Of a stretch of DNA of 64,000 nucleotides, positions 14,800 through 39,242 are shown piece by piece. The notes beneath the pieces were generated by a model, which did no database searches, had not been told where the DNA came from, and saw nothing but the letters and a program-made list of their open reading frames with translations. Origin of the DNA: Crystallibacter permensis (GTDB lineage Bacteria > Actinomycetota > Actinomycetes > Actinomycetales > Micrococcaceae); the NCBI RefSeq assembly GCF_025960875.1, contig NZ_JAODLR010000005.1:1-64000 (forward strand). The letters are read 5' to 3'. How positions within the stretch are numbered: position 1 is the stretch's first letter; each line of letters starts with the position of its first letter. The translations under genes and the position numbers were made by a program.

Positions 14800-14813
14800 C
14801 CCGTAACTACGGG
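14800..14813. terminator. small hairpin between convergent genes
   Basis: CCCGT-AACT-ACGGG forms a five-pair stem with a four-base loop in the 19-bp gap between the transporter stop (14796) and the end of the acetyltransferase gene (14816). It could end transcription from both sides. There is no T-tract. Confidence 0.4.
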
Positions 14814-15601: not shown

Positions 15602-17653
15602 ATGGCCAATTACAGGGTGTCCATGGACATCGGCGGGACGTTTACAGACATCGTCGCCTACGACAAGGAAGCCGGCACCTACACCGCCACCAAAGCGTCC
15701 ACAACGCCAGCCAACCTCAGCGACGGGGTCATTTCCGGTTTAGAGTCGATCGTCGACAACCTGTCGGATATTGAGTTTTTGGTGCACGGCACGACCCAAG
15801 GATTGAACGCATTCTTAGAACGCCGGGGCGTTCCCGTATTGCTGCTCTCGACAGCAGGCGTCGAAGACACCTACCACATTGCCCGCGGTCCCCGGCTGGA
15901 ACTGTACAACGCCCAATATCGAAAGCCAGAACCGCTCATGGAGCGCAAGGACGTGGTTGGGATCGGTGGACGCCTCGACGACCAGGGCCACGAAATTCGC
16001 CCGCTGAACGAGGTTGCCTTGCGCCAGGCCGCCCGCCGGGCAGCCAAGGAAGGGTACGGCGCGATCGCCGTGGCTTTCCTATTCAGTTACAAGAACCCGG
16101 CCCACGAACTACGTGCCCGCGAGATCTTGCTAGATGAACTCGGTGCAGATTTTGCTGTCTCCCTCTCTCATGAGGCCGCCAAGGAATGGCGCGAATATGA
16201 GCGTACCTCCTCGGCAGTCGTAGAGGCTTACACCGGTCCTGTAGTCCGCAACTATCTGCAGAACTTGGAGGAACAGCTAGACGCCCGCGGTGTCCAGGCT
16301 CCCCTGCACATCATGCAGTCCTCCGGCGGGGTTCTCACCGCAGAGTCCGCACGGAAGCGTCCGCTGCAGACGCTGCTCTCCGGTCCTGTGGGTGGGGCGA
16401 TGGGCGATGTGGAGCTTGCTGCCGTCTCCGGCCGCCGAAATTTGATCGGTGTCGACATGGGCGGGACGTCCTTTGACGTCTCCCTTGTAGTGGATGGCAA
16501 GCCGGATGTCTCAACAGAGGCCGTTCTCGAAGGCCTGCCAATGCTGATGAGCGTAGTCAACATCCACACCGTGGGAGCCGGCGGCGGATCTGTGGCATGG
16601 CTTGAGGCCGGCGGCCTGCGAGTGGGACCACGTTCGGCAGGCGCCACCCCCGGCCCGGCATGCTACAGCCGTGGCGGTGTCGAACCGACCGTGACTGACG
16701 CCAATCTCGTCCTGGGACGTGTGGATCCGGAGTGGTTCGCCGGTGGTCAGGTTGCCCTTGACAAGCAGGCAGCAGTCAATGCACTCAAGACGGTGGGCGA
16801 TCAGCTGAGCCTGGATCCGCTGGAGATGGCCGAAGGCATCTGCGACGTCGCCAACTCCCAGATGGCCCAGGCCATCCGTACGATCACCATTTCACGCGGA
16901 ATTGAACCACGAGACTTCTCCCTGGTGGCGTTCGGCGGGGCCGGCCCGATGCACGCTGTGTTCTTAGCCAAGGAACTTGGTATCCCGGAGACCATTGTGC
17001 CGCGGTTCCCCGGCGCATTCTCGGCTTGGGGAATGCTGCAGACCAATATCCGCAAAGATTTCGTCGAGCCGTACTTTGCTCTCGACGCTGATATCGACAC
17101 TGCGGACATGGCGGCCGTCCTGGGCGGTATGGAAAGCGAAGCTGTGGCATCTCTGGTCTCTGAAGGAGTAACCGCAGAGCATCGAGTCGCAACCCACGCC
17201 GTGGATGTGCGGTACCAGTCGCAGGAATTCACGCTGACCGTGCCGCTGGCCTCCGCGGACGAACCGCATTCTCCCGGCTTCGTGAAGAACCTAGCGGCCC
17301 GCTTCGCGGAAATGTACAGTGCCCGCTACGGACATGCCACCCCCGGTGCGCCGATCGAAGTAGTCACATTACGTACCAAGGCCGTCGGGGATCTGGGCCG
17401 CCTAGAGGCACCGCAATTCGCGGCTGCCACCGCCACAAGTTTCAAGCATGAAATCCGCAAAGTGATATTTGACCACGTTGAGCACGACGCGATTGTGGTC
17501 CGACGCGATGATCTCGCCGCCGGCCATGCCTTCACCGGCCCAGCCATCATTGTCGAAGAAACCGCCACGACCGTAGTGCCACCGAATTTCAACATTTTGG
17601 TCGACGAGTTCGGCTCACTAGTGATCCGCAATGACGACGCAGCAGGAAACTGA
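15602..17653 (+). CDS. hyuA: ATP-dependent hydantoinase/oxoprolinase subunit A
   Basis: Large ASKHA-fold subunit that phosphorylates the substrate's ring oxygen in ATP-dependent opening of hydantoins, oxoproline or lactams. Both phosphate-binding loops are intact: MDIGGTFTDIVAYD at residue 9 and GVDMGGTSFDVSLV near residue 285. Other landmarks are FLVHGTTQGLNAFLERRG, QSSGGVL, LLSGPVGGAMGD, GAGGGSVAWL and RSAGATPGPACY. Length of 683 residues is normal. ATG 15602 is preceded by AGGAG; the frame extends upstream without support. It is followed by hyuB after 9 bp. Substrate is not readable; caprolactamase and N-methylhydantoinase belong to the same family. Confidence 0.93.
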   Translation: MANYRVSMDIGGTFTDIVAYDKEAGTYTATKASTTPANLSDGVISGLESIVDNLSDIEFLVHGTTQGLNAFLERRGVPVLLLSTAGVEDTYHIARGPRLELYNAQYRKPEPLMERKDVVGIGGRLDDQGHEIRPLNEVALRQAARRAAKEGYGAIAVAFLFSYKNPAHELRAREILLDELGADFAVSLSHEAAKEWREYERTSSAVVEAYTGPVVRNYLQNLEEQLDARGVQAPLHIMQSSGGVLTAESARKRPLQTLLSGPVGGAMGDVELAAVSGRRNLIGVDMGGTSFDVSLVVDGKPDVSTEAVLEGLPMLMSVVNIHTVGAGGGSVAWLEAGGLRVGPRSAGATPGPACYSRGGVEPTVTDANLVLGRVDPEWFAGGQVALDKQAAVNALKTVGDQLSLDPLEMAEGICDVANSQMAQAIRTITISRGIEPRDFSLVAFGGAGPMHAVFLAKELGIPETIVPRFPGAFSAWGMLQTNIRKDFVEPYFALDADIDTADMAAVLGGMESEAVASLVSEGVTAEHRVATHAVDVRYQSQEFTLTVPLASADEPHSPGFVKNLAARFAEMYSARYGHATPGAPIEVVTLRTKAVGDLGRLEAPQFAAATATSFKHEIRKVIFDHVEHDAIVVRRDDLAAGHAFTGPAIIVEETATTVVPPNFNILVDEFGSLVIRNDDAAGN

Positions 17654-17662
17654 GGAAACGCC

Positions 17663-19336
17663 ATGACACTCGAAGCAGTCAAAACTCTTGATCCCGTAAC
17701 TGTAGAAATCATCCGCAACGCTTTGACCAGCGCTGCCGATGATATGAATGCCACTCTCATTCGCTCCGCATATTCACCGATCCTCTATGAAGGCGGGGAC
17801 TGCGTGGTGGCCTTGATGGACACCGAGCACCGGGTGCTGGGGCAGTCAGCGGGTTTGCCGTTGTTCCTCGGCAATCTGGAAACGTGCTCGCTGGCAGTGG
17901 AGGAGAAGTACGGTCGCTCTGCATGGCAGGAAGACGATGTCTGGATCCTCAATGATTCTTATATCGGCGGCACCCATCTGAACGACGTGACCATTTTCGC
18001 GCCGGTCTTCGTTAGCGGCGACCTAGTTGGCTTTGCTGCCACCCGCGCTCACTGGATGGACATGGGTTCCAAGGATGTCGGCGGGTCAATGAACTCCACG
18101 GATATTTTCCAGGAGGGATTCCGCATGGGCCCGGTCAAGCTCCATGAGGCAGGAATCGAGACCTCGGTCGTAGATTTGATCAGTACCAATGTTCGCTTCC
18201 CTTACCAGACCAAAGGCGATATGAACGCGATGGTCGCCGCTTTGCGCATGGGAAGCACGCGGATGAAAGAGCTAGTCAACCGCTACGGCGTCGAACAGCT
18301 CAACGCGGCACGGGACGAGATCTTCCGGCAGACCGAAGAGCTGGAGTTGGAAACTGTCCGCGATATCCCGGACGGCGTCTATGAGGCCGAAGGGGTCCTG
18401 GACAATGACGGCATCGAGTTGGACAAGCCTATATCTATAAAGCTGAAGATCACCGTCGCCGGCGAAACCATCGACTTCGATGTACGCGAGTCGTCAGATC
18501 AGACGGTCGGTCCGGTAAATTGCGGCGTCGCACAGGCGGTCTCGGCCCTGCGCGTTGGATACAAGCTGCTGATCAGCCCGGACACCAACTCCAACGGTGG
18601 CTCTTTCCGTCCGATGACTACTCAGGTCCGCAGGGGTTCTGTACTGGGCGCGATCGCGCCGGCGCCCTGCCAGTGGTACTTCTCGCACCTCGGCATGCTC
18701 ATCGACATGGTCTCCCGAGCGATGGCCCCAGTGATGCCCGAACGCGTCGTCAGCGCAAGCCACGGCGATTCGATGATCATCACTACCGCCGGATTCGACG
18801 CCCGCTTCGGCCGTAACTGGGTCACTATGGAGGCGACTCTAGGCGGCTACGGTGGATGGCAGGGCAGCGACGGCGAATCTGCTCTGATCAATAACGTCAA
18901 CGGTTCGCTGAAGGATCTGCCCATCGAAATGATGGAGACCCGCTATCCGTTCCGCATCAATGAATACTCCATCCGCCCCAATTCGGGTGGTCCGGGCCAA
19001 TGGCGCGGTGGTAATGGCGTAGTGCGCGAATACGAGTTTTTGGCCGACTGCGTGGTGGGACTCTGGTTCGAGCGCTCCAAGACACCAGCATGGGGTCTAT
19101 TCGGCGGGGCCGACGCGCAGGGTCCGGAAGTCATAATCAACCCAGGCCGCGCGGACGAGGTCCGCACCTTGAAGGAGAACGCCCGCAAGATCAAGGCAGG
19201 AGACATCATCCGGCTCGCCGTCGGTGGTGGTGGCGGCTTCGGAGAGGTGACGGAGCGTACCCGCGAAGCCATCGAGCAGGACATCGCCAACGGCTACATC
19301 ACTGAAGATTTCGCCAAGACCCATTACGGCTACTGA
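17663..19336 (+). CDS. hyuB: ATP-dependent hydantoinase subunit B
   Basis: The HyuB subunit, which hydrolyses the ring once HyuA has activated it. The protein opens LDPVTVEIIRNALTSAADDMN, the family start, and carries NDSYIGGTHLNDVTIFAPVF (metal and active-site region) near residue 95, and the glycine-rich RINEYSIRPNSGGPGQWRGG segment near 435. At 557 residues it is complete. GAGGAAA precedes the ATG. It directly follows hyuA and precedes the ABC importer, so uptake and ring opening are coexpressed. Confidence 0.93.
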   Translation: MTLEAVKTLDPVTVEIIRNALTSAADDMNATLIRSAYSPILYEGGDCVVALMDTEHRVLGQSAGLPLFLGNLETCSLAVEEKYGRSAWQEDDVWILNDSYIGGTHLNDVTIFAPVFVSGDLVGFAATRAHWMDMGSKDVGGSMNSTDIFQEGFRMGPVKLHEAGIETSVVDLISTNVRFPYQTKGDMNAMVAALRMGSTRMKELVNRYGVEQLNAARDEIFRQTEELELETVRDIPDGVYEAEGVLDNDGIELDKPISIKLKITVAGETIDFDVRESSDQTVGPVNCGVAQAVSALRVGYKLLISPDTNSNGGSFRPMTTQVRRGSVLGAIAPAPCQWYFSHLGMLIDMVSRAMAPVMPERVVSASHGDSMIITTAGFDARFGRNWVTMEATLGGYGGWQGSDGESALINNVNGSLKDLPIEMMETRYPFRINEYSIRPNSGGPGQWRGGNGVVREYEFLADCVVGLWFERSKTPAWGLFGGADAQGPEVIINPGRADEVRTLKENARKIKAGDIIRLAVGGGGGFGEVTERTREAIEQDIANGYITEDFAKTHYGY

Positions 19337-19359
19337 ACAGCCACCCTGAAAGGACTGTT

Positions 19360-20391
19360 GTGAAAAACATCAAGCGTTCTGCAGTGACCGCGTCCCTCGC
19401 TGGCCTTGCCCTCCTGATGACAGCCTGCTCGCCGCCCAGCGAAGCCAACAACTCGGCGGATTCCGCCGCTGCGGCCGGTGTGGACGAAAAGCTCGACGTT
19501 GGCTTCTTCGGCTTCGCTGCCTCCAACTCCTTCGCCCAAGGCACTTATCTGGGAGTCGAGAAGGCCGCTGCTGAAAACAATGCCACGGCCACCTTCGTAG
19601 ATTCCAACTTCGATCCGCAAACTCAGGTCCAGCAGATCCAAGATGCAGTCACTTCACAGCAATTTGACGTGATCGTGGTCCAAGCCAACGACAATCAGGC
19701 GCTCGTCCGGCCGCTAGAGCAGGCAATCGATGCGGGCATTACCGTAGTGGTCGAGTTCTCCGTAGTTGGACCCAAGTTCGACACAATTGAACCGCAGATT
19801 CCGGGCGTTATCAGCATCGTGGATTCGCCGACGGTTAACGGGACGGCGCTTGGCGAAATGGGCAGGGATGCCTGCGCCGAGGTCGAAGACGATGTCTGCC
19901 AGGTGGCCTATTTGGAAGGGTTCAAGGCCCTGCCTCTGGATAATGCGCGGACCGACGCGGTTATAGCGGCGCTGGAGGAAGACCCAAAGATTGAGGTGGT
20001 AGCCAGCGTCGAAGGCGGCTACACCCAGGACAGCGGACGCCAGGCCTACCAAGACGTGTCCCAGGCCAATCCGGATCTCGACGTAGTCATCGGCGCTTCG
20101 CAGGCGATCACCGGCGTGCAACTGGCCGCAGGTGAAGGCTCCGAGCTAAAGCTGATCGGCAACGGCGCCTCTAAGTCCAATGTGGAGGCTGTACGTTCCG
20201 GTGACTGGTTTTCCATCTATGTGATGGACGTGGTTGCTAACGGCGCCAAGGCCACTGAATTGGGCTTGGCCAAGGCTCGCGGCGAAGCCGTCGAGATGGC
20301 GATCGACGAAGCCACTCTGGCCCCGAACGGAGGCAAAGGCACCAAGGAAGCCTTGGAGAAGGTGGACTTCGAAGCTCAGTACTCGGACTAA
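19360..20391 (+). CDS. ABC importer substrate-binding lipoprotein (sugar/CUT2-like)
   Basis: A periplasmic-binding-fold lipoprotein of the RbsB type. The signal peptide MKNIKRSAVTASLAGLALLM runs into a lipobox with TACS (Cys near residue 23). After a Ser/Ala linker the domain begins LDVGFFGFAASNSFAQG and includes FDVIVVQANDNQALVRPLEQA, typical for ligand binding between two lobes. GTG 19360 has AAGGACT before it. Although relatives bind sugars, its place between hyuB and other hydantoinase genes suggests a cyclic amide or related ligand. A strong hairpin follows the gene. Confidence 0.88.
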   Translation: MKNIKRSAVTASLAGLALLMTACSPPSEANNSADSAAAAGVDEKLDVGFFGFAASNSFAQGTYLGVEKAAAENNATATFVDSNFDPQTQVQQIQDAVTSQQFDVIVVQANDNQALVRPLEQAIDAGITVVVEFSVVGPKFDTIEPQIPGVISIVDSPTVNGTALGEMGRDACAEVEDDVCQVAYLEGFKALPLDNARTDAVIAALEEDPKIEVVASVEGGYTQDSGRQAYQDVSQANPDLDVVIGASQAITGVQLAAGEGSELKLIGNGASKSNVEAVRSGDWFSIYVMDVVANGAKATELGLAKARGEAVEMAIDEATLAPNGGKGTKEALEKVDFEAQYSD

Positions 20392-20398
20392 GAACGAA

Positions 20399-20447
20399 CG
20401 GTACGGTCCTTCGACCCTGGCGCCATCAGGCCCGAAGGACCGTACCG
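20399..20447 (+). promoter_or_regulatory. intercistronic hairpin after the binding-protein gene
   Basis: A perfect 15-bp inverted repeat (CGGTACGGTCCTTCG at 20399-20413 and its complement at 20433-20447) with a 19-base loop fills the gap before the ATPase gene. It lacks a T-tract. Such hairpins usually protect the upstream message or partly end transcription, giving more binding protein than transporter. Confidence 0.7.
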
Positions 20448-20476
20448 ACACCTTCCAGTTCAAATCAGAGGTCAGC

Positions 20477-22003
20477 ATGGCTATACAACAGGTATCGACG
20501 CAGGACAGCGTTCAGCCGACTACTACACCAGAAATCACTGTGGCAGGGCTGGGGAAACGCTACGGCCCCAGCGTGGTCCTCAACGATATAAACTTATCCA
20601 TCGCCCCTGGAGAGATCCACGGCATTGTCGGCGAAAACGGGGCCGGTAAGAGCACGCTGCTGAAGATCCTTGGGGGTGCCATCGTGGCAGATTACGGCAC
20701 ACTGAGCCTCGACGGCCAACCGGTCAAGATCAGCTCCCCGCGGGATTCGATTGCCCGGGGAATCTCGCTCATCGCACAGGAACTGGCTCTCATTCCGGAG
20801 CGCAGCGTGCTGGAAAACGTCTTCCTGGGCCGCTGGTCCAATACGGCAGGACTGGCCAGGATCGGTAGCGATGCGGAACATTTTGCCCGGCTAATTGATG
20901 AGACGGGTTTCGAGCTGGATCCCAGCGCCATCGTCGGGCGGTTGCCGATCGGCTTGGCCCAGCAGGTGGAGATCCTTAAAGCCTTGGCCCGCGGCGCCAA
21001 GGTCCTGTGCATGGACGAGCCGACCGCGGTGCTGAACGAGGCCGAAAAGGCCCGGCTCCTTTTGGTGATGAAAAGGCTTGCCGCCGCCGGCACCACGGTC
21101 ATCTTGGTCTCGCACTATCTCAATGAAGTGCTTGAGTTGGCCGATCGCGTCACCATACTGCGTGACGGACGGCACATCCTCACCGGCGTTGCCCAAGAAC
21201 AGACCCCCGAGTCGCTGGTCCGCCACATGGTTGGGCGCGATGTGGATTTCCTCATCCCCGAGATTCCCGAGGTTGGTGCGGAGGCGCCGACGGCGCTCAA
21301 GGTATCCGGCCTCTCCAGCAGCAAAGTTGCAGAAATCTCCTTGGAAGTGCGCAGGGGAGAAATCCTCGGCCTGGCCGGTCTGGTCGGCAGCGGACGCAGC
21401 GAAACACTACTGGCGATCTTCGGCGCCGACCCAGCAACAGCCGGAACTGTCGAGATCAACGGCAGGCGTATTCCCGGCGGTTCCGTCGCAAGAGCTATTA
21501 AAGCGGGCATCGCCTTGGTCCCCGAGTCCCGCAAGGAGCAGGGCCTGATCACGGTCCGGCCCGTGTCGGAGAACATTGCGTTGGCCACGCTCGCCAAGCG
21601 CTCCCTGGCCGGGTTTGTGAAGTGGCAGCAGGAGAAGAAGGCGGTGGCCGCGATCAGCGAAGCCGTTGACATCCGCGGAGTGCGGCAAAATATGTCCATT
21701 GCAGGACTCTCCGGTGGCAACCAGCAGAAAGCACTCTTTGCCAAATGGCTGCTTGATCCGCCCTCCGTCCTGCTGGTCGACGAACCAACCCGCGGAGTCG
21801 ACATCGCTGCCAAGACCCGTATTCACAAGATGATTGCGGAGCTAGCAGCAAAAGGGACTGCCGTCGTCGTCGTCAGTTCCGAACTCGAAGAAGTAATCGG
21901 CCTGTCCCATCGCATCAAGGTCATGAGACACGGCCGGATCGTTGCGGAATTCGACCGAAACGCATCCCGCGACGAGGTTATGGCCTCCGCTTTTCTGAAA
22001 TAG
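20477..22003 (+). CDS. ABC importer ATPase with two nucleotide-binding domains
   Basis: A 508-residue tandem ATPase of the RbsA/MglA type. Domain 1: Walker A GENGAGKSTLLK near residue 55, signature region LPIGLAQQVEILKALARG, Walker B KVLCMDEPTAVL. Domain 2 has the degenerate P-loop typical of the family (GLVGSGRSETLLAIFG), signature LSGGNQQKALFAKWLL and Walker B VLLVDEPTRGVDIAA. In domain 1 the usual LSxGQ is replaced by LPIGLAQQ, a modest deviation. ATG 20477 follows a weak AGAGGT site just after the hairpin; a longer frame would overlap the binding-protein gene. Confidence 0.9.
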   Translation: MAIQQVSTQDSVQPTTTPEITVAGLGKRYGPSVVLNDINLSIAPGEIHGIVGENGAGKSTLLKILGGAIVADYGTLSLDGQPVKISSPRDSIARGISLIAQELALIPERSVLENVFLGRWSNTAGLARIGSDAEHFARLIDETGFELDPSAIVGRLPIGLAQQVEILKALARGAKVLCMDEPTAVLNEAEKARLLLVMKRLAAAGTTVILVSHYLNEVLELADRVTILRDGRHILTGVAQEQTPESLVRHMVGRDVDFLIPEIPEVGAEAPTALKVSGLSSSKVAEISLEVRRGEILGLAGLVGSGRSETLLAIFGADPATAGTVEINGRRIPGGSVARAIKAGIALVPESRKEQGLITVRPVSENIALATLAKRSLAGFVKWQQEKKAVAAISEAVDIRGVRQNMSIAGLSGGNQQKALFAKWLLDPPSVLLVDEPTRGVDIAAKTRIHKMIAELAAKGTAVVVVSSELEEVIGLSHRIKVMRHGRIVAEFDRNASRDEVMASAFLK

Positions 22004-22011
22004 GTGATCAT

Positions 22012-23001
22012 GTGACAACAACAGAGACCATTGCTGCGCCGCGGCCGGCGCAGAAAAAGAAGTTTGACAACAAGTACCGCGACTTCGGCATCGTTTTCGG
22101 TTTGATCGCAATCATGCTGCTGCTCGCCCTCAACACCACCACGTTTCTAACCGGGCAGAACTTTATCAATCTCTTTGACCAAGCTACGGTCGTTGGACTC
22201 TTGGCGGCCGGAGTGACGCTATGCATCATCAGCGGCGTCTTCGACCTGTCGTCCACAGCCACGTTGGCTGTCTCTTCGATCATCGGCGTGACGATTACTC
22301 AGCAGTTCGGTGTGGCCGCAGGGTTCTTCGGCGCCCTGATCGTGGGCACGCTGATGGGCGCTCTCACCGGCATAATCGTTGTTCTCACCAAGGTCAATTC
22401 CTTTATCGGTACGTTAGCCATGAGCATTATTTACCGCGGGGTCGCCATCGTCATCACTGGCGGCGCCATCGTAGCCCCTTTGCCCGAGCAAATGGATTCT
22501 TTCCGGACGTGGACCTGGCCGAGTCTATTGGGCCTCAGCGCCGGTTCGGTGTTGATGCTAGCCGTCATGTCGGGGCTGGGAATTCTGCTGTGGCGTAGCA
22601 CCTTCGGCCGTAGGATCTACGCCGTCGGCGGCAACAAGGAAGCTGCCCGGCTGAGTGGCATTCGCACCGGTTCCATCCATGTAGCCGTCTTCGCCATCAG
22701 TGGCCTCTGCGCCGGCATGGCTGGCATGATCCTCGCGTCCCGTGCCGGATCCGCGGCGCCATCCATGGCCACCGGCATCGAACTGACAGCCATTGCCGCA
22801 GTTGTTATCGGCGGCACGAGCATCATGGGCGGCCAGGGCGCGCTATGGCGCACCTTTGCTGGGGTTATGCTCCTGACGGTGATTGGAAACGGCTTCAACC
22901 TCCTGCATTGGGACACGACCTACCAGCAGGTGGTCACCGGAGTCTTGATCCTGGTGGCCGTCGCGGCCGACGGATTGTTCAAGAAGAAATACGGATCCTA
23001 G
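22012..23001 (+). CDS. ABC importer permease (RbsC-like)
   Basis: A 329-residue permease with about nine or ten membrane helices of the BPD_transp_2 family. GLLAAGVTLCIISGVFDLS near residue 60 is the conserved segment of sugar-type permeases, and GGNKEAARLSGIRTGSI near 205 is the cytoplasmic EAA-like loop contacting the ATPase; AIAAVVIGGTSIMGGQGALW follows. It starts at GTG 22012 eight bases after the ATPase stop. A single permease gene implies a homodimeric channel. Confidence 0.9.
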   Translation: MTTTETIAAPRPAQKKKFDNKYRDFGIVFGLIAIMLLLALNTTTFLTGQNFINLFDQATVVGLLAAGVTLCIISGVFDLSSTATLAVSSIIGVTITQQFGVAAGFFGALIVGTLMGALTGIIVVLTKVNSFIGTLAMSIIYRGVAIVITGGAIVAPLPEQMDSFRTWTWPSLLGLSAGSVLMLAVMSGLGILLWRSTFGRRIYAVGGNKEAARLSGIRTGSIHVAVFAISGLCAGMAGMILASRAGSAAPSMATGIELTAIAAVVIGGTSIMGGQGALWRTFAGVMLLTVIGNGFNLLHWDTTYQQVVTGVLILVAVAADGLFKKKYGS

Positions 23002-23055
23002 ATGGACGAGGATTCGTATCGCTGAGAGGCGGTTCAGTTGAAAGCGGGGTATTAC

Positions 23056-24360
23056 ATGGTGCGGATAGGGCTAAGGCTGGCAGAAGGCTCCTGCCAAGTG
23101 ACGGCTTTGGAGGGGCAGAAGATCCTCCACAGCAGCGGATCGCGGGCCGGGAGTCTGGCTGAGGCTGTCGACCAAACGCTGGCCCAACTGCACAGCCTGC
23201 TGCACAACGATCCGCTGCGCCCGGTCACCGAGATAACCGCCGACGTCGGCCCGCTCCTGCAGACACGCAGCCCCGCAGAAGTTGTGGCCATCCGAGTCTC
23301 CCCTCGGCCTCCAGCCGATGCCTTCCACAGCACCAGTCTGCCGTCGAATGCGGCATCACTGGTGAGGAGGGCTATACACGTGCGTGGGGGGCATGATGTC
23401 CGCGGACGTGAGTTGGCTCCGCTAGGCCTGGAAGACTTCGTCGCCGAACTCCCCTCAATCGTCGCCACAGGTATTAGGAATATCTCGATCACGGGCGTCG
23501 GCTCCATTGCTGCCACAGCGCATGAGGAAGCGGTAGCAGATGCACTCCTGTCCCAAGACAGCGATATGAGGATAACGCTGTCGCACGGGTACTTTTCCAA
23601 TGCATTCCGGGACCGAGACTACACCGCCATTCTCAACAGCGCACTCAGCGCGACAGGCGATGAACTGGCAACGTTATTGGAGCGAAGCTGCAGGCGATAC
23701 TTTCCCTCGGCGGCCCTCTGTTATGCGAAGAACGATGGGGGCAGTGGCCCGCTGAGCTTGCTCTCCACTACACCCGTCCACGGATTGTTTGCCGAACCGG
23801 CTATGCGGATCTTGGGCTGTGCCACACTCACTGGAGTGCCCGACGGCGAGGTTATCCTCGGCGAAGACCAAGGGGTGAGCGTGGGGCTCACCCGCCATGG
23901 AATTCCCGTAGCTAGCAGCCTGATCCGCCGGGGGCATGGAGCATCATTGGCGAGCAACGCTGCAGTTCACGCGCCTTATACCAGGAACCATCTACTTGCT
24001 CCAGACGCTGTCTCGGTTATCGCGGACTTACGCCAGAGCATCGGTGCGCCCCTGCCTTTTGGACTGAAACCCACAATAAGCATCCGCGACGATGTGGCTC
24101 TGGTCGGCTGCGCCGCCGCCCTCCTGACCGGCTGGATCGACCGCCTCGAATCGGTGGTCAATGAGGCGGACTTAAGGCGTGCCCAGCATCTGGCCGAAGA
24201 AGACGCTCAATCCATGACCGTCAACCTCGGGGCAGCTCCAGGGAACACCCGGATCATTGAATCCAGTGCCTCCAGCGTGGCATACAGCTATCCCGGCATT
24301 GTCAGGGTCCGGGTTCGGGCCGCTGGAACCCGCGCAGTTGCAGATAGTGAGGTCAAATGA
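23056..24360 (+). CDS. degenerate HyuA-like protein lacking the ATP-binding motifs
   Basis: About 434 residues that align by eye with the hydantoinase/oxoprolinase A fold. The N-terminus VRIGLRLAEGSCQVTAL stands where active proteins have IGIDVGGTNTDAV, so the first phosphate loop is gone. RGHDVRGRELAPL-like text (GGHDVRGRELAPLG), NISITGVGS, CYAKNDGG and AEPAMRILGCATLTGV follow the family order, but the second DxGGTxxD loop is replaced by GEDQGVSVGLTRHG. It therefore probably does not bind ATP as a kinase. ATG 23056 aligns with the family start; TTG 23038 is an alternative. It overlaps the DUF917 gene by ATGA. A scaffold or sensing role with that protein is my inference. Confidence 0.65.
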   Translation: MVRIGLRLAEGSCQVTALEGQKILHSSGSRAGSLAEAVDQTLAQLHSLLHNDPLRPVTEITADVGPLLQTRSPAEVVAIRVSPRPPADAFHSTSLPSNAASLVRRAIHVRGGHDVRGRELAPLGLEDFVAELPSIVATGIRNISITGVGSIAATAHEEAVADALLSQDSDMRITLSHGYFSNAFRDRDYTAILNSALSATGDELATLLERSCRRYFPSAALCYAKNDGGSGPLSLLSTTPVHGLFAEPAMRILGCATLTGVPDGEVILGEDQGVSVGLTRHGIPVASSLIRRGHGASLASNAAVHAPYTRNHLLAPDAVSVIADLRQSIGAPLPFGLKPTISIRDDVALVGCAAALLTGWIDRLESVVNEADLRRAQHLAEEDAQSMTVNLGAAPGNTRIIESSASSVAYSYPGIVRVRVRAAGTRAVADSEVK

Positions 24361-25478
24361 CCTCGGGAGAGCGCAGCGGCGTACCCGCTACCCGGCTCGG
24401 TATGACAAGTCTGACCAGCGCCGATATAGCGCATTTACGGACTGGGGCACAATTCCTGGCTTGCACCATTGACCCCACATCGACTTATATCTATGCCGAG
24501 ATGATTCAGTCGGCGATGGTGAGCGGACAGGTTCAACTGGTCGATGTAGAGAGCCTCGACCCGGAAGATCTCGTTGTGGCTACCGGCATGGTTACCCAGG
24601 GACTGTTCATTGCCGATATGCCTCCGGTCGGGGACGAATTCCTAAGCTGTATCAGTGCGATCGAGACCGCCCTGAGTCGGAAGGTCCAAGCCGTCTATTC
24701 GCTTGCAGCAGCCAGCATCAACGGCATCGTGCCCCTGATGGTTGGCCTGCAGTCCGGCTTGCCAGTGGTAGACGCCGATCCAATGGGCCGTGTTTTTCCG
24801 CTGATCAGCCAGACGACCTTGCATATCGGTGAAGTGGGTATCAGCCCCATAGCGATGATGGGAGTCACCGGAGAGCGAGCCATGGTCGAGGCTCCTAATC
24901 CCCAACGTGCCGAAACGCTGGTACGTTCGCTGGTGACAGAACTCGGCGGCTGGGCGGCCACTGCCATGTATCCCTGTACGGCGGGAGAACTGCGCATGCA
25001 TGGGGTACGCGGGACGGTTACCCGGATGATCCGTGTCGGAGAGATTCTCGACGCGGACGAATCCGTGGAGAACAAATACCGCCGACTCATCGAATTGCTC
25101 AAAGCCGTCCGAATCAGTCGGGCCCGGGTGCAACACATTGAAAGCCTTTCCCGGCCAACAGGCCTGGGCCTTCCGGCGCAGCCATCCAGTATGACACTCA
25201 TCGACGAAACCACCGGCCAAATCATCAGGCTGGAGATTCAGAATGAGATTCTCCTTGTTCTCGTCGACGGTGCTGTGGCGGCAGCTGTACCGGATATTGT
25301 GACCCTACTTAGCCCGGAGTACGGCACGGCGGTCAGCTTAGACGATGTGGGGGTAGGTACGGTGATCGATGTGATCGCGATTCCCGCAGCCGAAGCTTGG
25401 TATTCGGCGCCCGGCCTTGAACTGGCAGGCCCTCGCGCGTTCGATATTCCATTGGATCATCCGAGGCGCAATGCGTAG
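24357..25478 (+). CDS. DUF917 / S-methyl-thiohydantoin desulfurase-like protein
   Basis: A 373-residue DUF917 protein. The middle has the clear family signature SGLPVVDADPMGRVFPLISQ near residue 135, and SLTSADIAHLRTGAQFL is the family start. Known members either desulfurate thiohydantoins or accompany HyuA proteins. The glycine-rich motif usually following the start (G-T-G-G-G-G-D-P) is replaced here by CTIDPTST, so activity is doubtful. It is tied by a 4-bp overlap to the degenerate HyuA upstream and by an 8-bp overlap to the regulator downstream, which points to one functional module. Confidence 0.72.
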   Translation: MTSGERSGVPATRLGMTSLTSADIAHLRTGAQFLACTIDPTSTYIYAEMIQSAMVSGQVQLVDVESLDPEDLVVATGMVTQGLFIADMPPVGDEFLSCISAIETALSRKVQAVYSLAAASINGIVPLMVGLQSGLPVVDADPMGRVFPLISQTTLHIGEVGISPIAMMGVTGERAMVEAPNPQRAETLVRSLVTELGGWAATAMYPCTAGELRMHGVRGTVTRMIRVGEILDADESVENKYRRLIELLKAVRISRARVQHIESLSRPTGLGLPAQPSSMTLIDETTGQIIRLEIQNEILLVLVDGAVAAAVPDIVTLLSPEYGTAVSLDDVGVGTVIDVIAIPAAEAWYSAPGLELAGPRAFDIPLDHPRRNA

Positions 25479-26991
25479 ACCAGGCCAAGGCAGGCGACTG
25501 GATCTGTCAACCGTTCTCGCTCGCGGATCGCTGCGCAGCACTACCGCGCTCTACCTCGCTCCTTCCAGCACCGTGATAGACGGGGTGATGATCGTGCCAC
25601 ACCTCGACGCGATACGTCGTGTACCGCCCAATACGGTCGTGGTCCTGTCCACCGAGATGGGAGCCGGCGGCTGGCTCGTGTCCGCGGCACTGCGCCACGC
25701 TTGGGAGCGGCGATCCAGCGCCGTTGTTGTGCCAGAAAGCAGGTATTCCAGTACTGTTATCGGGCTCGCCGAGCGGTTGGACATAACCCTACTGGCGGCC
25801 GGACAAGATCCGGCCAGCGTGGCCTTGGACTTGGCAGCCGAAATCGGAGCCGCTAGGTCCGTCGTCGACGTGCAGCTCGCGAATCTGGTCCGCGCTCTGA
25901 TCAAAGAATCGACTGTTACCGGAGTCCTGCGCGGAATATCCCAACACCTAGGCGGAATTCTCATCGCTTTGGAATACGATGGCGTCTTGGTCGCTTCCGC
26001 AGGAAGCACCGGCAAAGATGACGGTCAAGTGTCCGTGGATCTGCGCAGCCAGGAGAACAGTAGTAGGGGCATGGCCCTGACAGCCCAGATTCCCGCCGAC
26101 GAAGCCTACGACCGGCAGTTTGTGCGCACTGCGTTGGAAATGGCGGTGCCCTCAGTGCAGTCGGCGTGGCTGCAGGTCAATTCTCGCGAGGACCGTGATG
26201 CTGTGCCCAGCGCCGCGCTCGTGGATCTAACCCCCTTTGATACTGCAGCCGACGACAAGTTCGAAGACCGACACCGGCATCTGATGACCGAATTGGGCTG
26301 GCATAGGGGCCAGCGTTATGTAGCCGTTTGGATCTGGCACGATCCCAATGAGCCGCACCGCTTGGAACGGACCGCCGTCTTGCGTCTCTTGTGGCGCAGA
26401 GTTGGGATACGGCGCCCGCTGGCCGAGGTTGAAGAAGGCTGGCTCTCCATAATTCCATGTGAAGAGGACCAGAGAGTGGCGCAATTGCAGCAACGGGTCA
26501 ACGCCAAAATTGGGCGGGCGCTGGCCGAGTTCCATCTTGCCGCCGGGCTCTCCCGTTGGCAGGCGGAGAACGTGACTTTGCCCGCCATTGTCAGGGAAGC
26601 CAAGATCGCCGCCGAATGTGCCTACCTGACTGGCCCAGGAAACATCCTCGCCTTTGGCAGCCTAAACGTCCAGGCAGCAACATTCTTCATGAACCAGGAG
26701 ACCATACAGCAGGTGGCTCATCTGGCACTGCCGCAGCTGATGGCGGCCCCTGACCGGGAGCAAATGATCTCATCCTTGGCCTCGTACTTAGACCACCACA
26801 GTTCCGTAAGCTCGGCAGCCAAAGCCTTGAACCTGCACCGCAACACCCTCCAGACTCGTCTCCATCGGGCCCGAGAACTTGGAGTGCCGCTGGACGACCC
26901 GCACCAACTCCTCGCGACGCACATGATTCTGCATGTGCTGAACGACGTCACATCCAGAACAACACGACACGCGAGAAAGGACTCACCATGA
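25471..26991 (+). CDS. PucR-family transcriptional regulator
   Basis: A 506-residue regulator. The C-terminal PucR helix-turn-helix is clear: LASYLDHHSSVSSAAKALNL then HRNTLQTRLHRARELG. The N-terminal 140 residues are a ligand-binding domain as in PucR relatives (STVLARGSL, HLDAIRRVPPNTVVVLSTE). ATG 25471 overlaps the DUF917 stop; the frame extends to 25417 without support. PucR-type proteins respond to purine, amine or ureide metabolites and usually activate nearby catabolic genes. Its location inside the hydantoinase operon makes that operon the likely target, with autoregulation. It overlaps the GAF gene by ATGA. Confidence 0.87.
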   Translation: MRRPGQGRRLDLSTVLARGSLRSTTALYLAPSSTVIDGVMIVPHLDAIRRVPPNTVVVLSTEMGAGGWLVSAALRHAWERRSSAVVVPESRYSSTVIGLAERLDITLLAAGQDPASVALDLAAEIGAARSVVDVQLANLVRALIKESTVTGVLRGISQHLGGILIALEYDGVLVASAGSTGKDDGQVSVDLRSQENSSRGMALTAQIPADEAYDRQFVRTALEMAVPSVQSAWLQVNSREDRDAVPSAALVDLTPFDTAADDKFEDRHRHLMTELGWHRGQRYVAVWIWHDPNEPHRLERTAVLRLLWRRVGIRRPLAEVEEGWLSIIPCEEDQRVAQLQQRVNAKIGRALAEFHLAAGLSRWQAENVTLPAIVREAKIAAECAYLTGPGNILAFGSLNVQAATFFMNQETIQQVAHLALPQLMAAPDREQMISSLASYLDHHSSVSSAAKALNLHRNTLQTRLHRARELGVPLDDPHQLLATHMILHVLNDVTSRTTRHARKDSP

Positions 26992-27443
26992 GTACTCCCT
27001 TTAACACCTTCGACGACATCTACCAAGCTGCCCGGTCGGAGGTAGGTGTCCGGCTTTTTACCGTGTCGGCAATCGCCGATAACGGCACCGCCATGGCAAG
27101 GGTCTACACGACGCATCCTGATGTCTACCCGGTCGGCGGCAAGAAGACCTTTTCCGAAGACACAGATCCGCAGTGGCTGCAGCATGTGATCGAAGACCAG
27201 CAGCCGTTCATGGGAAAGGACAAGGAAGCGGTCCGGGCATTCTTCTTCGACTACGAGACCATCGAGTCGCTCGGCTGCGGCGCCATCATCAACGTACCCG
27301 TGATTAGCGATGGCAAGACGGTGGGATCAATGAACTTCCTTGACACCGAGGGCAGCTACAACCAAGTGTCGCTACAGGTTGCTGTACAGATCGCCGAGCG
27401 CTCCGGCAACGTATTGGAAGAGACCATCTCCACCGTCGGGTAA
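26988..27443 (+). CDS. small GAF-domain protein
   Basis: A 151-residue protein that is one GAF domain: RLFTVSAIADNGTAMARVYT at the start, then ESLGCGAIINVPVISDGKTVGSMNFLD, the usual core strands. A stand-alone GAF protein of this size is often a small-molecule sensor or, in the fRMsr branch, a methionine sulfoxide reductase; the Cys pattern of that enzyme is not evident (one Cys in LGCGA). It overlaps the regulator stop by ATGA, suggesting it works with it or with the catabolic enzymes. Confidence 0.75.
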   Translation: MSTPFNTFDDIYQAARSEVGVRLFTVSAIADNGTAMARVYTTHPDVYPVGGKKTFSEDTDPQWLQHVIEDQQPFMGKDKEAVRAFFFDYETIESLGCGAIINVPVISDGKTVGSMNFLDTEGSYNQVSLQVAVQIAERSGNVLEETISTVG

Positions 27444-27490
27444 CTGAAGCTAACCGTGTACTGACCGCAGAGAGTAAGGACCAGACTGAC

Positions 27491-28711
27491 GTGAGTACTG
27501 CCAGCCCATTAACCGTCCAGAACGCCCTGATTTTCGACGGCGAATCCGCCGAGCTGACGAGTGGACCCATCCATGTGGAAGACGGACGCATCACCGCCCT
27601 TGACGGCGACCCCGCCGAGGGCGCGGAGGTGATCGACGCCGGAGGCAAGGTGGTGATCCCTGGGCTCATCGACGCACATTTCCATGCCTATGCCATCAGC
27701 CTGACATCAATTAAGAATGAAATTGGACCCCTGAGCTACTCCGCACTGGCAGGAGTCCGGCGCCTCGGCTCGGCACTGCGGCGCGGTTTCACCACGGTTC
27801 GTGACGTAGCCGGCGGCGACATCGGGCTGGCCAACGCCATTGAAGAAGGCATGTTCGTTGGGCCTCGGTATCTGTTCACCGGTCCGGCTCTAAGCCAGAC
27901 CGGCGGTCACGGCGACCCACGCGGGGCACACGATGGCGGCTGCTTCCATGGGGGGCATATGTGCGAGGTAGTGGACGGTGCAGACAATCTGCTCACCGCT
28001 GTCCGGCAGCGGTTTCGGACCGGAGCTCACGCGATCAAGCTGATGACCTCGGGCGGTGTTATCTCTCCGGTCGATCCCCTGCGCATCCCGCAGTACTCAG
28101 CTGCGGAGATCCGGGCGGTGACGGAGGAAGCGTCGCAACGGGGCAGCTACACCACGGCCCATGCCTATTCCCCAGAAGCTATCCGGCATTCAGTACTAAA
28201 CGGGGTCCGCTGTATTGAACACGGAAACCTGCTGGATCAGGAAACCGCGGAACTCATGGGAGAGCACGGCTCTTATCTGGTCCCGACCTTAGTGACTTAT
28301 GATGCGATGAACCGGCGCGGTCAGGAAATCGGGCTCACCGCAGTCGGGAGTGGGAAGAACCGGGAGGTTCTGGACGCCGGCCGCAAGGCTGTCGAACTCG
28401 CACACACCGCCGGCATCCCGCTCGGTTTCGGGTCAGACCTTATGGGTGCACTTGAAAACGAACAGCTGCAGGGGCTGCGCCTGCAGAGTGAAGTAACTGG
28501 TATCCACGAACTGCTTCGCTCGGCCACCTCGGTGAATGCGCGGCTTCTGCAACGCGATGATCTGGGACACATAGCTGTCGGAGCCATCGCCGACCTAGTT
28601 CTCCTCGACGGAAATCCGTTCCAGGACCCGTCCGTACTATGGGACGACAGCCGGAAGCGGACAGTGATCAAAGCCGGTGCGGTAGTCCCCGCAGACATCA
28701 GAGACCAGTGA
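27491..28711 (+). CDS. metal-dependent amidohydrolase (imidazolonepropionase/Xaa-Pro dipeptidase-like)
   Basis: A 406-residue amidohydrolase with a binuclear metal site. Ligands visible: HFH at 63-65 (GLIDAHFHAYAIS), the carboxylated Lys184 (AHAIKLMTSGG), His225 (TTAHAYSP), His245 (IEHGNLLD) and catalytic Asp317 (LGFGSDLMG). This arrangement is that of the subgroup containing carnosinase- and prolidase-like enzymes acting on N-acyl amino acids and dipeptides. GTG 27491 follows TAAGGA. In this operon it could cleave the ring-opened product. Substrate is an inference. Confidence 0.85.
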   Translation: MSTASPLTVQNALIFDGESAELTSGPIHVEDGRITALDGDPAEGAEVIDAGGKVVIPGLIDAHFHAYAISLTSIKNEIGPLSYSALAGVRRLGSALRRGFTTVRDVAGGDIGLANAIEEGMFVGPRYLFTGPALSQTGGHGDPRGAHDGGCFHGGHMCEVVDGADNLLTAVRQRFRTGAHAIKLMTSGGVISPVDPLRIPQYSAAEIRAVTEEASQRGSYTTAHAYSPEAIRHSVLNGVRCIEHGNLLDQETAELMGEHGSYLVPTLVTYDAMNRRGQEIGLTAVGSGKNREVLDAGRKAVELAHTAGIPLGFGSDLMGALENEQLQGLRLQSEVTGIHELLRSATSVNARLLQRDDLGHIAVGAIADLVLLDGNPFQDPSVLWDDSRKRTVIKAGAVVPADIRDQ

Positions 28712-28712
28712 T

Positions 28713-30131
28713 ATGACCGCAAATTTGACTGTCGACTGCTCCGTTGAAGGCGTGTTCGAAGAGGATCTGACTGACTATGAAGCCCACGTTCAGACGTTCA
28801 TGGCGGCGGGCTTCCGCGGGCAACAAGACCAAACCATACTGCTGGAACGACTGCAGGGCCCGGTTTTGCTGGTAGGACTAGGACTCCGCGCCCATGCTGT
28901 GGCTGACACGGTGCGGACGGCAGCCGCAACGGCAGGACGGGCGTTGCGCCACCTAACGACGGCCCGCTGTACGCTAGCGGCAAAATCCATGCCCGGCTAT
29001 GCACCCGAGGAGGTAGCTAGAGCAGCAGCCGAAGGCGTAACCCTCGGCGCCTATCACTTTGCCGGCTACAAATCTTCGCTTGCGACTCGTACACGGTGGC
29101 TGTCCGCTCTCGGGCCCAAGTTCGGAGATCTCGAATCCGAGGGGTGGGCCGAGGGAGTTCAGATTGGCACCGCCGTTAACTTCACCCGGGATCTGGTCAA
29201 TACGCCGGCCAACATCCTCACGCCCACCGCTCTGGCTGATCACGCCGAGACTTTGGCCCGCAACGCTGGCATGGGATTTCGCAGGATCAGTGGTGCGGAA
29301 TTGGACAGCGGTGCATTTGGTGGTATTGCCGCCGTCGGACGCGGTTCTGCCGAGCCAGCCTGTCTGGTGGAGCTAACTTGGGGCGATCCACAGCAGCCGC
29401 CTGATCTGTGCCTGGTAGGCAAGGGAATTACCTATGACTCCGGTGGCCTGTCGCTTAAGAGCCCGGAGAGCCAAATCGGTATGAAGAACGACATGGGAGG
29501 CGCCGCAGCGGTACTGGGGGCCATGATGCTCGTTCCGCTCCTTGCCCCTTCGCTCCGGGTCAAAGCAGTCCTGCCGTTCGCGGAAAATATGCCCGGCGGT
29601 CGGGCGACTCGGCCAGGCGACGTTGTCACCATGCGCAACGGAAGGACCGTCGAAATCCTAAACACTGATTTCGAAGGTCGGTTGGTGCTCGGCGATGCAT
29701 TGGCCCTTGCAGCAGAGTCCGGCCCTGGAGCCATCATCGATCTAGCCACGCTAACCTACGCCGCCACGCACGCTCTCGGCGAGCGTACTGCCGCTCTTTT
29801 AGGCAGCGATCAGACCCTCATTGAGAGGATTGAAAGAGCCGCTGGTGTCACCGGAGAGCCGGTGTGGCGACTTCCCATGCCGAGGTACCTTCGGCCCCAG
29901 ATCCTGTCCCAGGTGGCGGATCTGAAGAATTTTCCGGGCGCAACCACGGCCCGCACCTCCACAGCTGCTATGTTTCTCCGGGAGTTTGTGCCAGCGAGTA
30001 TCCCTTGGGCACACCTTGATTTGGCTGGTCCGGCATGGTCGGAAGAGGAATATGGTGTAGCGTCGCGCGGCGCCACAGGTTACGGTGTCCGTCTTCTCGG
30101 CCAGCTACTGCGGACATACGCGCGCGGGTAG
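28713..30131 (+). CDS. pepA: M17 leucyl aminopeptidase
   Basis: Dizinc aminopeptidase that removes N-terminal residues from peptides in the cytoplasm. All metal and catalytic residues are recognisable: Lys237 and Asp242 in GKGITYDSGGLSLK, Lys249, Asp260 (KNDMGGA), and Asp319, Glu321 and Arg323 in NTDFEGRL. The family usually has NTDAEGRL; Phe for Ala is a small oddity beside the active site. Length of 472 is normal. It starts one base after the amidohydrolase stop, the last gene of the operon. A peptidase here suggests that the pathway yields a dipeptide or amino-acid amide. Confidence 0.92.
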   Translation: MTANLTVDCSVEGVFEEDLTDYEAHVQTFMAAGFRGQQDQTILLERLQGPVLLVGLGLRAHAVADTVRTAAATAGRALRHLTTARCTLAAKSMPGYAPEEVARAAAEGVTLGAYHFAGYKSSLATRTRWLSALGPKFGDLESEGWAEGVQIGTAVNFTRDLVNTPANILTPTALADHAETLARNAGMGFRRISGAELDSGAFGGIAAVGRGSAEPACLVELTWGDPQQPPDLCLVGKGITYDSGGLSLKSPESQIGMKNDMGGAAAVLGAMMLVPLLAPSLRVKAVLPFAENMPGGRATRPGDVVTMRNGRTVEILNTDFEGRLVLGDALALAAESGPGAIIDLATLTYAATHALGERTAALLGSDQTLIERIERAAGVTGEPVWRLPMPRYLRPQILSQVADLKNFPGATTARTSTAAMFLREFVPASIPWAHLDLAGPAWSEEEYGVASRGATGYGVRLLGQLLRTYARG

Positions 30132-30788: not shown

Positions 30789-30958
30789 CTAATTGCAATC
30801 GAATCTCAGCACCGAAGAGCCCTTTAGAACCTGCCTCCATCTTCTGAGCAGCCCCCAGAAAGTCACTGCGGGACGTAGACGCCGAGGCGGCCGCCCGCAC
30901 CGCACGGAGCACGCAGAACCTCTAAGAACGCAGTTGCCCGAACAATCAAAGGAAACAT

Positions 30959-32464: not shown

Positions 32465-32502
32465 CAGCACCCCCCTTGGTTACAAGGGAACGACCGCACA
32501 CG

Positions 32503-32531
32503 TTGAACAGTGCAATGTCACATGTTATAGT
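32503..32531 (+). promoter_or_regulatory. promoter with operator for the hydroxyproline operon
   Basis: TTGAAC (32503-32508), exactly 17 bases, TATAGT (32526-32531). The operator AATGTCACATG (32514-32524, ten of eleven matches to the CATGTSACATG palindrome) ends one base before the -10 box, the same place as in the symporter promoter. A protein bound there would block polymerase. Confidence 0.7.
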
Positions 32532-32600
32532 TAGTGGCATGGATCACGGATCCACAGACTTACCTCACGACCAACGCATTCCCCTTCGAAAGGAACCACC

Positions 32601-33506: not shown

Positions 33507-33522
33507 ACTCCACCGCGTAAGG

Positions 33523-33563
33523 GGTCCTGCGGAGCCTGCGCATCCTGCATGCTCCGCAGGACC
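33523..33563 (+). promoter_or_regulatory. intercistronic hairpin after the deaminase gene
   Basis: A perfect 13-bp repeat, GGTCCTGCGGAGC (33523-33535) and its complement (33551-33563), with a 15-base loop lies between the first and second genes. Without a T-tract it is more likely an mRNA-stabilising or partial-termination element, as after the binding-protein gene at 20399. Confidence 0.6.
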
Positions 33564-33604
33564 TGCGGCCCTGCCACCCACCTCCATCAGAAAGCGACAC
33601 AAGC

Positions 33605-35571: not shown

Positions 35572-35600
35572 GCACCACCGCTGCCCTTGGAGGAACCGTC

Positions 35601-36299: not shown

Positions 36300-36302
36300 C
36301 GC

Positions 36303-37484: not shown

Positions 37485-37756
37485 GTCACAAAATCAACGC
37501 AACCTTCAACGACCGCCCACTCACCGCCGAAGACGGCACCACCGTCGGCGCCGCCCTGATGACCAACGGCGTCACCTCATGGCGCAACACCCGCAAGGAG
37601 GGTAGGCCGCGAGGCCTGTTCTGCGGTATCGGTGTCTGCTTCGACTGCCTGGTGGATGTCGACGGCGAGCCCAACCAACGCGCCTGCATGGTGCGGCTCA
37701 CCGAAGGCATGCGCATCAACGGGGCGGAGCCCGACACCGCGGAGGAGGAAGCATGA
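37481..37756 (+). CDS. 2Fe-2S subunit of D-hydroxyproline dehydrogenase (HcnA-like)
   Basis: A 91-residue ferredoxin-like protein. Cluster ligands Cys48, Cys53, Cys56 (FCGIGVCFDC) and Cys69 (QRACM) give the plant-type spacing. It would pass electrons between the two flavoprotein subunits coded on either side. Both ends overlap neighbours by ATGA, fixing equal translation. Confidence 0.9.
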   Translation: MSHKINATFNDRPLTAEDGTTVGAALMTNGVTSWRNTRKEGRPRGLFCGIGVCFDCLVDVDGEPNQRACMVRLTEGMRINGAEPDTAEEEA

Positions 37757-39234: not shown

Positions 39235-39242
39235 GAGAATCG

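Follow-up and report, generated by a model that had tools for sequence, protein, structure and literature searches.

Several described systems resemble an eleven-gene operon that we analyzed in a 64,000-nucleotide stretch of Crystallibacter permensis DNA (contig NZ_JAODLR010000005.1, positions 1 to 64,000; hereafter, the window). Caprolactamase (CapAB) of Pseudomonas jessenii is, like the window pair, a two-subunit HyuA/HyuB enzyme with P1, P2, and adenosine motifs and an Asp-His-Asp-His metal site; the partners described for CapAB are an aminotransferase and beta-oxidation enzymes, whereas those in the window are dipeptidases and proline genes (PMC8453981). Pseudomonas NS671 hyuABC (PMC8453981) likewise places HyuAB on a mobile element, and a racemase family gene is present in half of the loci nearest to the window's, but the window operon has no N-carbamoylase among its 11 genes and has a prolidase in that place. 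A plasmid cluster of Geobacillus thermoglucosidasius C56-YS93 shares HyuAB, DUF917 with a HyuA-like protein, an Xaa-Pro peptidase, and proline dehydrogenase, and it also has a racemase and an MFS transporter (PMC4593210). This cluster differs in its phylum, in having an M24 peptidase in place of the amidohydrolase prolidase, and in a HyuB only 35% identical to ours; the HyuA-like partner of its DUF917 protein is 52% identical to the ordinary type. The authors of that 2015 genome paper suggest proline and hydroxyproline capture, in a passage that does not bring up cyclic dipeptides. Finally, the neighborhoods of cyclodipeptide-oxidase-like genes are enriched in DUF917 and hydantoin racemase genes, with peptidase genes in many, and hydantoin- or allantoin-like substrates were suggested for them (PMC11055893); there is no cyclodipeptide oxidase among the window's eleven operon genes.

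The operon is real, conserved, and mobile, and it belongs to the ATP-dependent cyclic amidase systems as a new variant. On balance, we favor the view that it is an acquired pathway for the uptake and degradation of proline-containing, here probably hydroxyproline-containing, cyclic dipeptides (2,5-diketopiperazines). At the level of sequence, the evidence consists of the gene content, intact HyuAB catalytic residues, a HyuA-fold protein (HyuAN) without ATP motifs, and the recurrence of Xaa-Pro peptidases and proline catabolism in related loci; the substrate, the bond cleaved, and the roles of HyuAN, DUF917, the GAF protein, and the aminopeptidase we infer. Cyclic dipeptides with proline, a group of natural products, have been described as highly enzyme resistant (PMC8533947), and the degradation of cyclic dipeptides is described as little known in a paper in which none of the peptidases tested cleaved them and which cites an Arthrobacter strain that degrades diketopiperazines (PMC3852281). 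An earlier note on the window had read the operon as fitting a cyclic dipeptide or a cyclic amino acid amide. Its proposal of ATP-driven ring opening followed by a dipeptidase is the best-supported part and is narrowed to proline and hydroxyproline by the neighboring genes, whereas the aminopeptidase that it included seems to fall outside the conserved core. The note knew of no described pathway with this exact set; 30 related loci exist, so the set is not unique to the window. Proline and hydroxyproline use had already been suggested for a distantly related plasmid cluster (PMC4593210), as had, in 2018, possible lactamase or cyclic dipeptide hydrolase functions for genes annotated as 5-oxoprolinase (PMC6061476). 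In the open literature, by titles and the starts of abstracts among the matches listed, this gene set was not found described as a cyclic-dipeptide pathway.

Gene content and predicted enzymes

The operon comprises eleven intact genes, all on the + strand at 15602-30131. Gene families were named from Pfam and NCBIfam profile matches.

15602..17653, +, hyuA, predicted ATP-binding large subunit of an ATP-dependent cyclic amidase (Pfam Hydant_A_N, Hydantoinase_A, and C-terminal domain)
17663..19336, +, hyuB, predicted metal-binding hydrolytic subunit (Pfam Hydantoinase_B, 526 bits)
19360..20391, +, substrate-binding protein, Peripla_BP_4 type (Pfam PF13407)
20477..22003, +, dual ATPase of a sugar-type (CUT2-like) importer (two ABC_tran stretches)
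22012..23001, +, permease of the same ATP-binding cassette (ABC) importer (Pfam BPD_transp_2)
23056..24360, +, hyuAN, HyuA-fold protein without ATP-phosphate motifs, DUF917 partner (weak Hydant_A_N)
24357..25478, +, DUF917/S-Me-THD-like protein (Pfam PF06032 and PF20906)
25471..26991, +, PucR-type transcriptional regulator (Pfam HTH_30 and GGDEF_2)
26988..27443, +, stand-alone GAF-fold protein, probably a ligand sensor (Pfam GAF families just below cutoff)
27491..28711, +, Xaa-Pro dipeptidase-like amidohydrolase (nearest solved structures and NCBIfam)
28713..30131, +, M17 (leucyl) aminopeptidase, accessory (Pfam PF00883)
30959..40715, +, adjoining hydroxyproline-type catabolic cluster (family matches, epimerase Cys motif)

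The HyuAB, ABC importer, DUF917, PucR, GAF, amidohydrolase, and aminopeptidase genes listed in the earlier note are thus all present, intact, and on the + strand, with unchanged coordinates; the eleventh gene, the HyuA-fold gene at 23056-24360 and sixth in order, was missing from its title. The note had remarked that the genes touch or overlap; neighbors either overlap slightly or stand no more than 85 bp apart. In operon order, the computed gaps are 9, 23, 82, 8, 54, -4, -8, -4, 47, and 1 bp. The third becomes 85 bp when the ATPase start is corrected to 20477, where the ATG of the reading frame lies (the codon at 20474 is AGC). This spacing suggests one transcript for all eleven genes, and 827 bp separate the operon end from the next gene. 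Promoter-like sites are fewer than in shuffled sequences, and terminator-like sites are about 1 standard deviation above them, so that neither count is informative.

HyuA carries DIGGT at 9, DMGGT at 285, and GATPGP at 347, corresponding to the P1, P2, and adenosine motifs described for caprolactamase, and D46, H105, D108, and H130 of HyuB align (in an alignment with CapB and N-methylhydantoinase) with the CapB metal residues Asp41, His99, Asp102, and His124 (PMC8453981). The caprolactamase residues for phosphate, adenosine, and metal are thus all retained in the pair. With paired A and B domains (PF05378, PF01968, and PF02538), DxGGT twice and GxxPGP in subunit A, and Asp-His-Asp-His in subunit B, the proteins are placed by sequence within the HyuAB/oxoprolinase/caprolactamase family of ATP-dependent amidases. 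By curated cutoff they are not caprolactamase: CapA and CapB are the best NCBIfam matches of HyuA and HyuB, at 493 and 271 bits, about half and a quarter of the equivalog cutoffs of 1000 (NF050156 and NF050157). The closest solved relatives are N-methylhydantoinase, the nearest, and caprolactamase. On a HyuB phylogenetic tree with some long branches, used solely for placing the window in these clades, the window lies in a supported clade with Micrococcaceae sequences (100/99) and in a wider supported clade that adds Nonomuraea and Ensifer (100/99).

The amidohydrolase has its nearest solved structures in 3feq/3n2c, whose entry name is prolidase, and in 3mkv, entered as a putative amidohydrolase, which we take to be a prolidase as well (E values of 1e-89 and 2e-87, with most of the length aligned). 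Well behind 3feq/3n2c come arginine carboxypeptidase Cc2672 and ochratoxinase (2e-37 and 1e-34). His, Lys, His, His, and Asp are present at the metal-ligand positions of the superfamily. With its nearest relative a solved prolidase and these positions in place, the protein is probably an Xaa-Pro dipeptidase, although it scores 233 bits against the NF051886 cutoff of 500.

HyuAN matches Hydant_A_N weakly (27.5 bits; cutoff, 25.2), but its AlphaFold model (mean predicted local distance difference test score [pLDDT], 80) has the HyuA fold: its best fold matches are N-methylhydantoinase, acetophenone and acetone carboxylase subunits, and caprolactamase, with template modeling scores (TM-scores, by query length) of 0.57-0.67. 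The DxGGT phosphate motifs are lacking in 12/12 resolved window-type HyuAN proteins, the window's included (a 13th, a G724 open reading frame, is unresolved), whereas ordinary HyuA-like partners of DUF917 have DxGGT twice (8/8). Because both motifs are absent, HyuAN is unlikely to use ATP in the usual way. The DUF917 protein shares with the desulfurases the Pfam fold domains only; it scores 54 of the 450 bits and 39 of the 440 bits set for thiohydantoin and S-methyl thiohydantoin desulfurase (NF058532 and NF058529).

The GAF protein model (pLDDT, 85) has as its top fold matches GAF domains, mostly of sensors and regulators; we found no PDB sequence match at E values up to 1 and no PHROGs match. 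We considered an enzymatic role and rejected it on these results, the matched GAF domains being ordinary ones. In Roseateles and Qingshengfaniella, the gene before hyuA encodes a GAF protein with 32-33% identity to the window's.

The best curated family of the binding protein is far below its cutoff; the rhamnose, rhizopine, autoinducer-2, and ChvE binding-protein models give 23-32 bits against cutoffs of 342-460. Sugar uptake was rejected, since no curated sugar family reaches its cutoff and MFS, APC, OPT, or peptide ABC transporters replace the importer in relatives. Peptide ABC importers are found in Thermus (annotated) and in Roseateles and Qingshengfaniella (by gene order).

Related loci and their proline genes

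A single DUF917 scan found 20 loci, spread over the genera Arthrobacter, Pseudarthrobacter, Paenarthrobacter, and Sinomonas. Ten of them repeat the window's gene order, hyuA-hyuB-sbp-ATPase-permease-hyuAN-duf917-pucR-gaf, and nine of these ten have the prolidase; because of this recurrence, the operon is more than chance. The other ten have a second arrangement, hyuAN-duf917-pucR, an opposite-strand MFS gene and Asp/Glu/hydantoin racemase family gene, and then, as far as the examined DNA extends, hyuA-hyuB-gaf-prolidase, with an extra opposite-strand oxidoreductase in 9/10; the examined DNA of these loci does not go beyond the prolidase. Full-length hyuAN matches occur in 7/295 genomes of the family, the window's own genome included, and in none of the 9 other genomes of the same genus.

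More distant sets were drawn from other families and genera of the order. We compiled gene presence for 30 loci besides the window: the 20 contig loci, two Micrococcaceae plasmids, Nonomuraea, G768, G757, G746, G756, G724, G042, and G448. Since the loci were found by DUF917, hyuAN, or hyuB, the presence of these genes is partly selection, and matches below set coverage or identity limits (e.g., an L015 prolidase fragment and a G746 pepA piece) are dropped from the counts. On this basis, hyuB and duf917 are found in 30, hyuA and hyuAN in 29, pucR in 28, prolidase in 22, the ABC importer in 17, OCD in 7, pepA in 4, and hypE and PutA in 3 each. The hyuA exception is L003, where the gene is broken into pieces, and the hyuAN match of Nonomuraea, a fragment, suits the ordinary type no less well than the window type. 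G448 lacks orthologous HyuAB, a distant pair (41/32%) alone being present.

Of the 25 related loci that reach the place of the prolidase, 23 have it, 22 by the filter plus a shorter end-cut copy in L015. L009, L010, L014, L016, and L019 stop before that place, the copies of L007, L008, and L012 are cut by the locus end, and L020 and Nonomuraea showed no prolidase in the examined DNA. The aminopeptidase behaves differently. No pepA match was found in the examined DNA of the 20 nearest loci and two related plasmids, 11 of which extend past the prolidase place (L002, L003, L004, L006, L011, L013, L017, L020, L021, and both plasmids). It recurs in more distant genomes (4/30 loci and a piece at the edge of the G746 stretch, five genomes), and the window copy is one of three M17 matches in its genome, the other two at 44%. 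A core role is thus not supported, there being no match in the 11 near loci that reach past prolidase, and the gene seems to be an accessory to the conserved set.

Proline genes recur beside these sets. The cluster adjoining the window operon encodes an AGCS carrier, a DapA-like protein, a 4-hydroxyproline epimerase-like protein, an OCD-like protein, GntR, two flavin adenine dinucleotide (FAD) oxidoreductases, and an aldehyde dehydrogenase. The epimerase-like protein carries both Cys residues (MCG at 90 and SPCG at 252), presumably the catalytic pair of 4-hydroxyproline epimerase, and its best match, the curated equivalog PRK13971, is just missed (363 versus 376 bits). The AGCS carrier was considered as an operon member and rejected: it is part of the hydroxyproline cluster, which occurs without the operon in a same-genus chromosome.

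Three genomes of a single genus in another family (G042, G746, and G757) have FAD oxidoreductase, dapA, hypE (70%), and aldehyde dehydrogenase genes beside prolidase and HyuAB; gntR is there too where the examined DNA covers it, which in G757 it does not. G768, of the same genus as G042, shows no hydroxyproline-type genes on a contig that ends near the prolidase. PutA adjoins the OCD gene in G042 and G746 and directly follows prolidase in Paenarthrobacter plasmid pYJN5-3. Parageobacillus plasmid pGEOTH01 carries racemase-MFS-regulator-hyuA-hyuB-cupin and then an M24 Xaa-Pro peptidase, PruA (above its curated cutoff), and proline dehydrogenase (ProDH; below it). In Rhodococcus J1-2, ProDH-PruA lies next to an ABC-hyuA-hyuB-amidohydrolase set, in which the amidohydrolase bears only a weak likeness to the window's, and an Ensifer HyuAB locus has ProC. 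M24 Xaa-Pro peptidase/aminopeptidase P genes adjoin HyuAB or are close to it in Neorhizobium (in pieces), Planococcus, Novosphingobium, Thermus, Qingshengfaniella, and Roseateles; the M24 proteins fall below curated PepQ cutoffs. Among 15 distant annotated plasmid records (Nonomuraea, H3, being excluded as a record without annotation), 7 have the M24 gene, 3 have ProDH, PruA, or ProC, and 9 have either kind.

Several of these loci contain additional features. The G042 cluster has a methyl-accepting chemotaxis receptor gene between its hydroxyproline cluster and prolidase (L092 13196-14818), and the receptor perhaps senses the same compounds. Near the prolidase of G768, G757, G746, G756, G042, and G448 lies a hyuAB pair about 41/32% identical to the window's, which is the second pair there except in G448; G768 and G757 have one more pair next to OCD/GntR. 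The presence of paralogous cyclic amidases within a single cluster suggests a division of labor between ring types. The Thermus and Qingshengfaniella clusters (L162 and L165) have one hyuA and two hyuB genes close together, the latter possibly encoding alternative hydrolytic subunits on one shared ATPase.

Proposed pathway and its alternatives

In the proposed pathway, the ABC importer would bring the cyclic dipeptide into the cell, HyuA would activate the ring with ATP, and HyuB would use a bound metal to hydrolyze it. For caprolactamase, three mechanisms have been considered, each proceeding via the activated lactim (N-H) form of the amide (PMC8453981). The sole N-H amide of cyclo(Xaa-Pro) is that between the proline carbonyl and the Xaa nitrogen; because the lactim needs an N-H amide and cyclo(Xaa-Pro) has one, opening there would yield exactly H-Xaa-Pro-OH, which would account for prolidase, from two unrelated families, as the recurring partner. 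The amidohydrolase would then split Xaa-Pro, and the M17 aminopeptidase may widen the range to other dipeptides. Freed hydroxyproline would enter the adjoining epimerase pathway and freed proline the PutA-type enzymes. PucR, perhaps with the GAF protein, would sense the inducer, while HyuAN-DUF917 may form a second, ATP-independent module. Judging from the roles of these families, the racemase would suit rings of mixed D/L configuration, and OCD, together with an FAD oxidoreductase, would suit the recovery of D-proline via pyrroline-2-carboxylate.

A number of observations weigh against this pathway. In the nearest loci, the prolidase is the only link to proline: PutA, OCD, hypE, ProC, and pepA queries against the examined flanks of the 20 loci gave nothing beyond an aldehyde-dehydrogenase match of 24-28% in L006. 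Each of the 20 genomes does match PutA somewhere, and in the second arrangement a PutA may lie past the prolidase, outside the examined DNA. Nonomuraea has no prolidase match and no proline enzyme among 10 scanned neighbors; G448, G756, and G724 show no hypE or PutA, and the G448 set adjoins citrate-synthase and PrpD-type genes. Neither proline gene kind was found in 6 of the 15 distant records (Methylobacterium, Natrononativus, Paracoccus, Leisingera, Aminobacter, and Mycetohabitans; H11, H14, H15, H18, H21, and H38), the plasmid gene tables being incomplete and absences there soft. The positive count is itself uneven: the first batch gave 3/8, and the second batch of 7, picked for relatedness to the Parageobacillus enzyme once that cluster had come to light, is biased to positives. 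The binding protein belongs to a sugar-type family, the names of the M24 and amidohydrolase proteins denote homology below curated cutoffs, and the solved HyuAB nearest to the window pair is N-methylhydantoinase. The M24 family includes creatinase, which would suit an N-methylhydantoin route. At its end, the Leisingera stretch carries genes for GntR, dihydrodipicolinate synthase, aldehyde dehydrogenase, and an FAD oxidoreductase, which were left out of the counts.

A hydantoin route could draw on some of these points. HyuAB would open the ring of a 5-substituted, N-methyl-, or proline-derived hydantoin, and the resulting N-carbamoyl amino acid would lose its carbamoyl group to the amidohydrolase, as in NS671 hyuABC. 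The nearness of N-methylhydantoinase, the racemase family gene in 10/20 nearest loci, and DUF917 relatives that by NCBIfam names act on thiohydantoins all fit. None of the 11 operon genes, however, is an M20 N-carbamoylase (the window's M20 genes lie at 52 and 60 kb), and the partners are dipeptidase-like proteins of two unrelated families together with proline catabolism; we consider this route unlikely. Only slightly more probable, and still improbable, is another proline- or hydroxyproline-bearing cyclic amide in place of a plain diketopiperazine: pyroglutamyl-proline, N-acyl-proline lactams, or a proline-derived natural product. The same downstream proline evidence applies to it, 5-oxoprolinases belong to the HyuAB family, and the variation of importers between loci (ABC, MFS, APC, and OPT) suggests differing substrates, but it requires a specific further compound, and the peptide ABC importers of Thermus, Roseateles, and Qingshengfaniella suit small peptides.

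The least likely explanation, to which we give little credence, is that the operon scavenges lactams or oxoproline in general and its peptidases are unrelated, with the proline neighbors marking a hot spot for amino-acid genes. The block does look like an island inserted beside an amino-acid catabolic cluster, and caprolactamase is the best NCBIfam match of both subunits. Against it stand the low CapA and CapB scores, the near-constant prolidase in loci that reach its place, and the recurrence of proline genes in unrelated genomes and on plasmids.

Probable horizontal origin and significance of the proposed proline cyclic dipeptide pathway

We take the operon block for a horizontally acquired island. 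The same-genus chromosome G007 lacks the operon: between its permease-like gene and hydroxyproline cluster there is a 1.5-kb stretch, most of it other DNA, and window positions 10817-14800 and 30860-40832 match it at about 92%. G+C content is about 60% in the block and 63-68% in most of the flanks. A 100-bp direct repeat with 95% identity, one copy at the end of the amino-acid permease-like gene (14697-14796) and the other at 42018-42117, flanks a 27-kb block with the operon and the hydroxyproline cluster; it could be a scar of insertion, and the far copy did not turn up in the examined stretch of G007. The set is also found on plasmids, one typed as conjugative. Elsewhere in the window, 52070-61475 holds a second catabolic region with an M20 peptidase/amidase, a thiamine-pyrophosphate enzyme, PucR, MFS, an RraA-like aldolase, and another M20 protein.

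More tentatively, and at somewhat less than even confidence, we propose a widespread unnamed pathway for the use of proline cyclic dipeptides in which HyuAB opens the one N-H amide and thereby supplies Xaa-Pro to either prolidase family, with swappable importers, sometimes an epimerizing racemase, and a DUF917 module whose HyuA partner has lost its ATP motifs; it would be spread through Actinomycetota, Bacillota, Deinococcota, and Pseudomonadota on plasmids and islands. A defined gene set with a specific bond prediction makes the question of diketopiperazine degradation directly testable. If the pathway is as proposed, many genes annotated as oxoprolinase or hydantoinase could be renamed, and DUF917 and its HyuA partner without ATP motifs would gain a metabolic setting.

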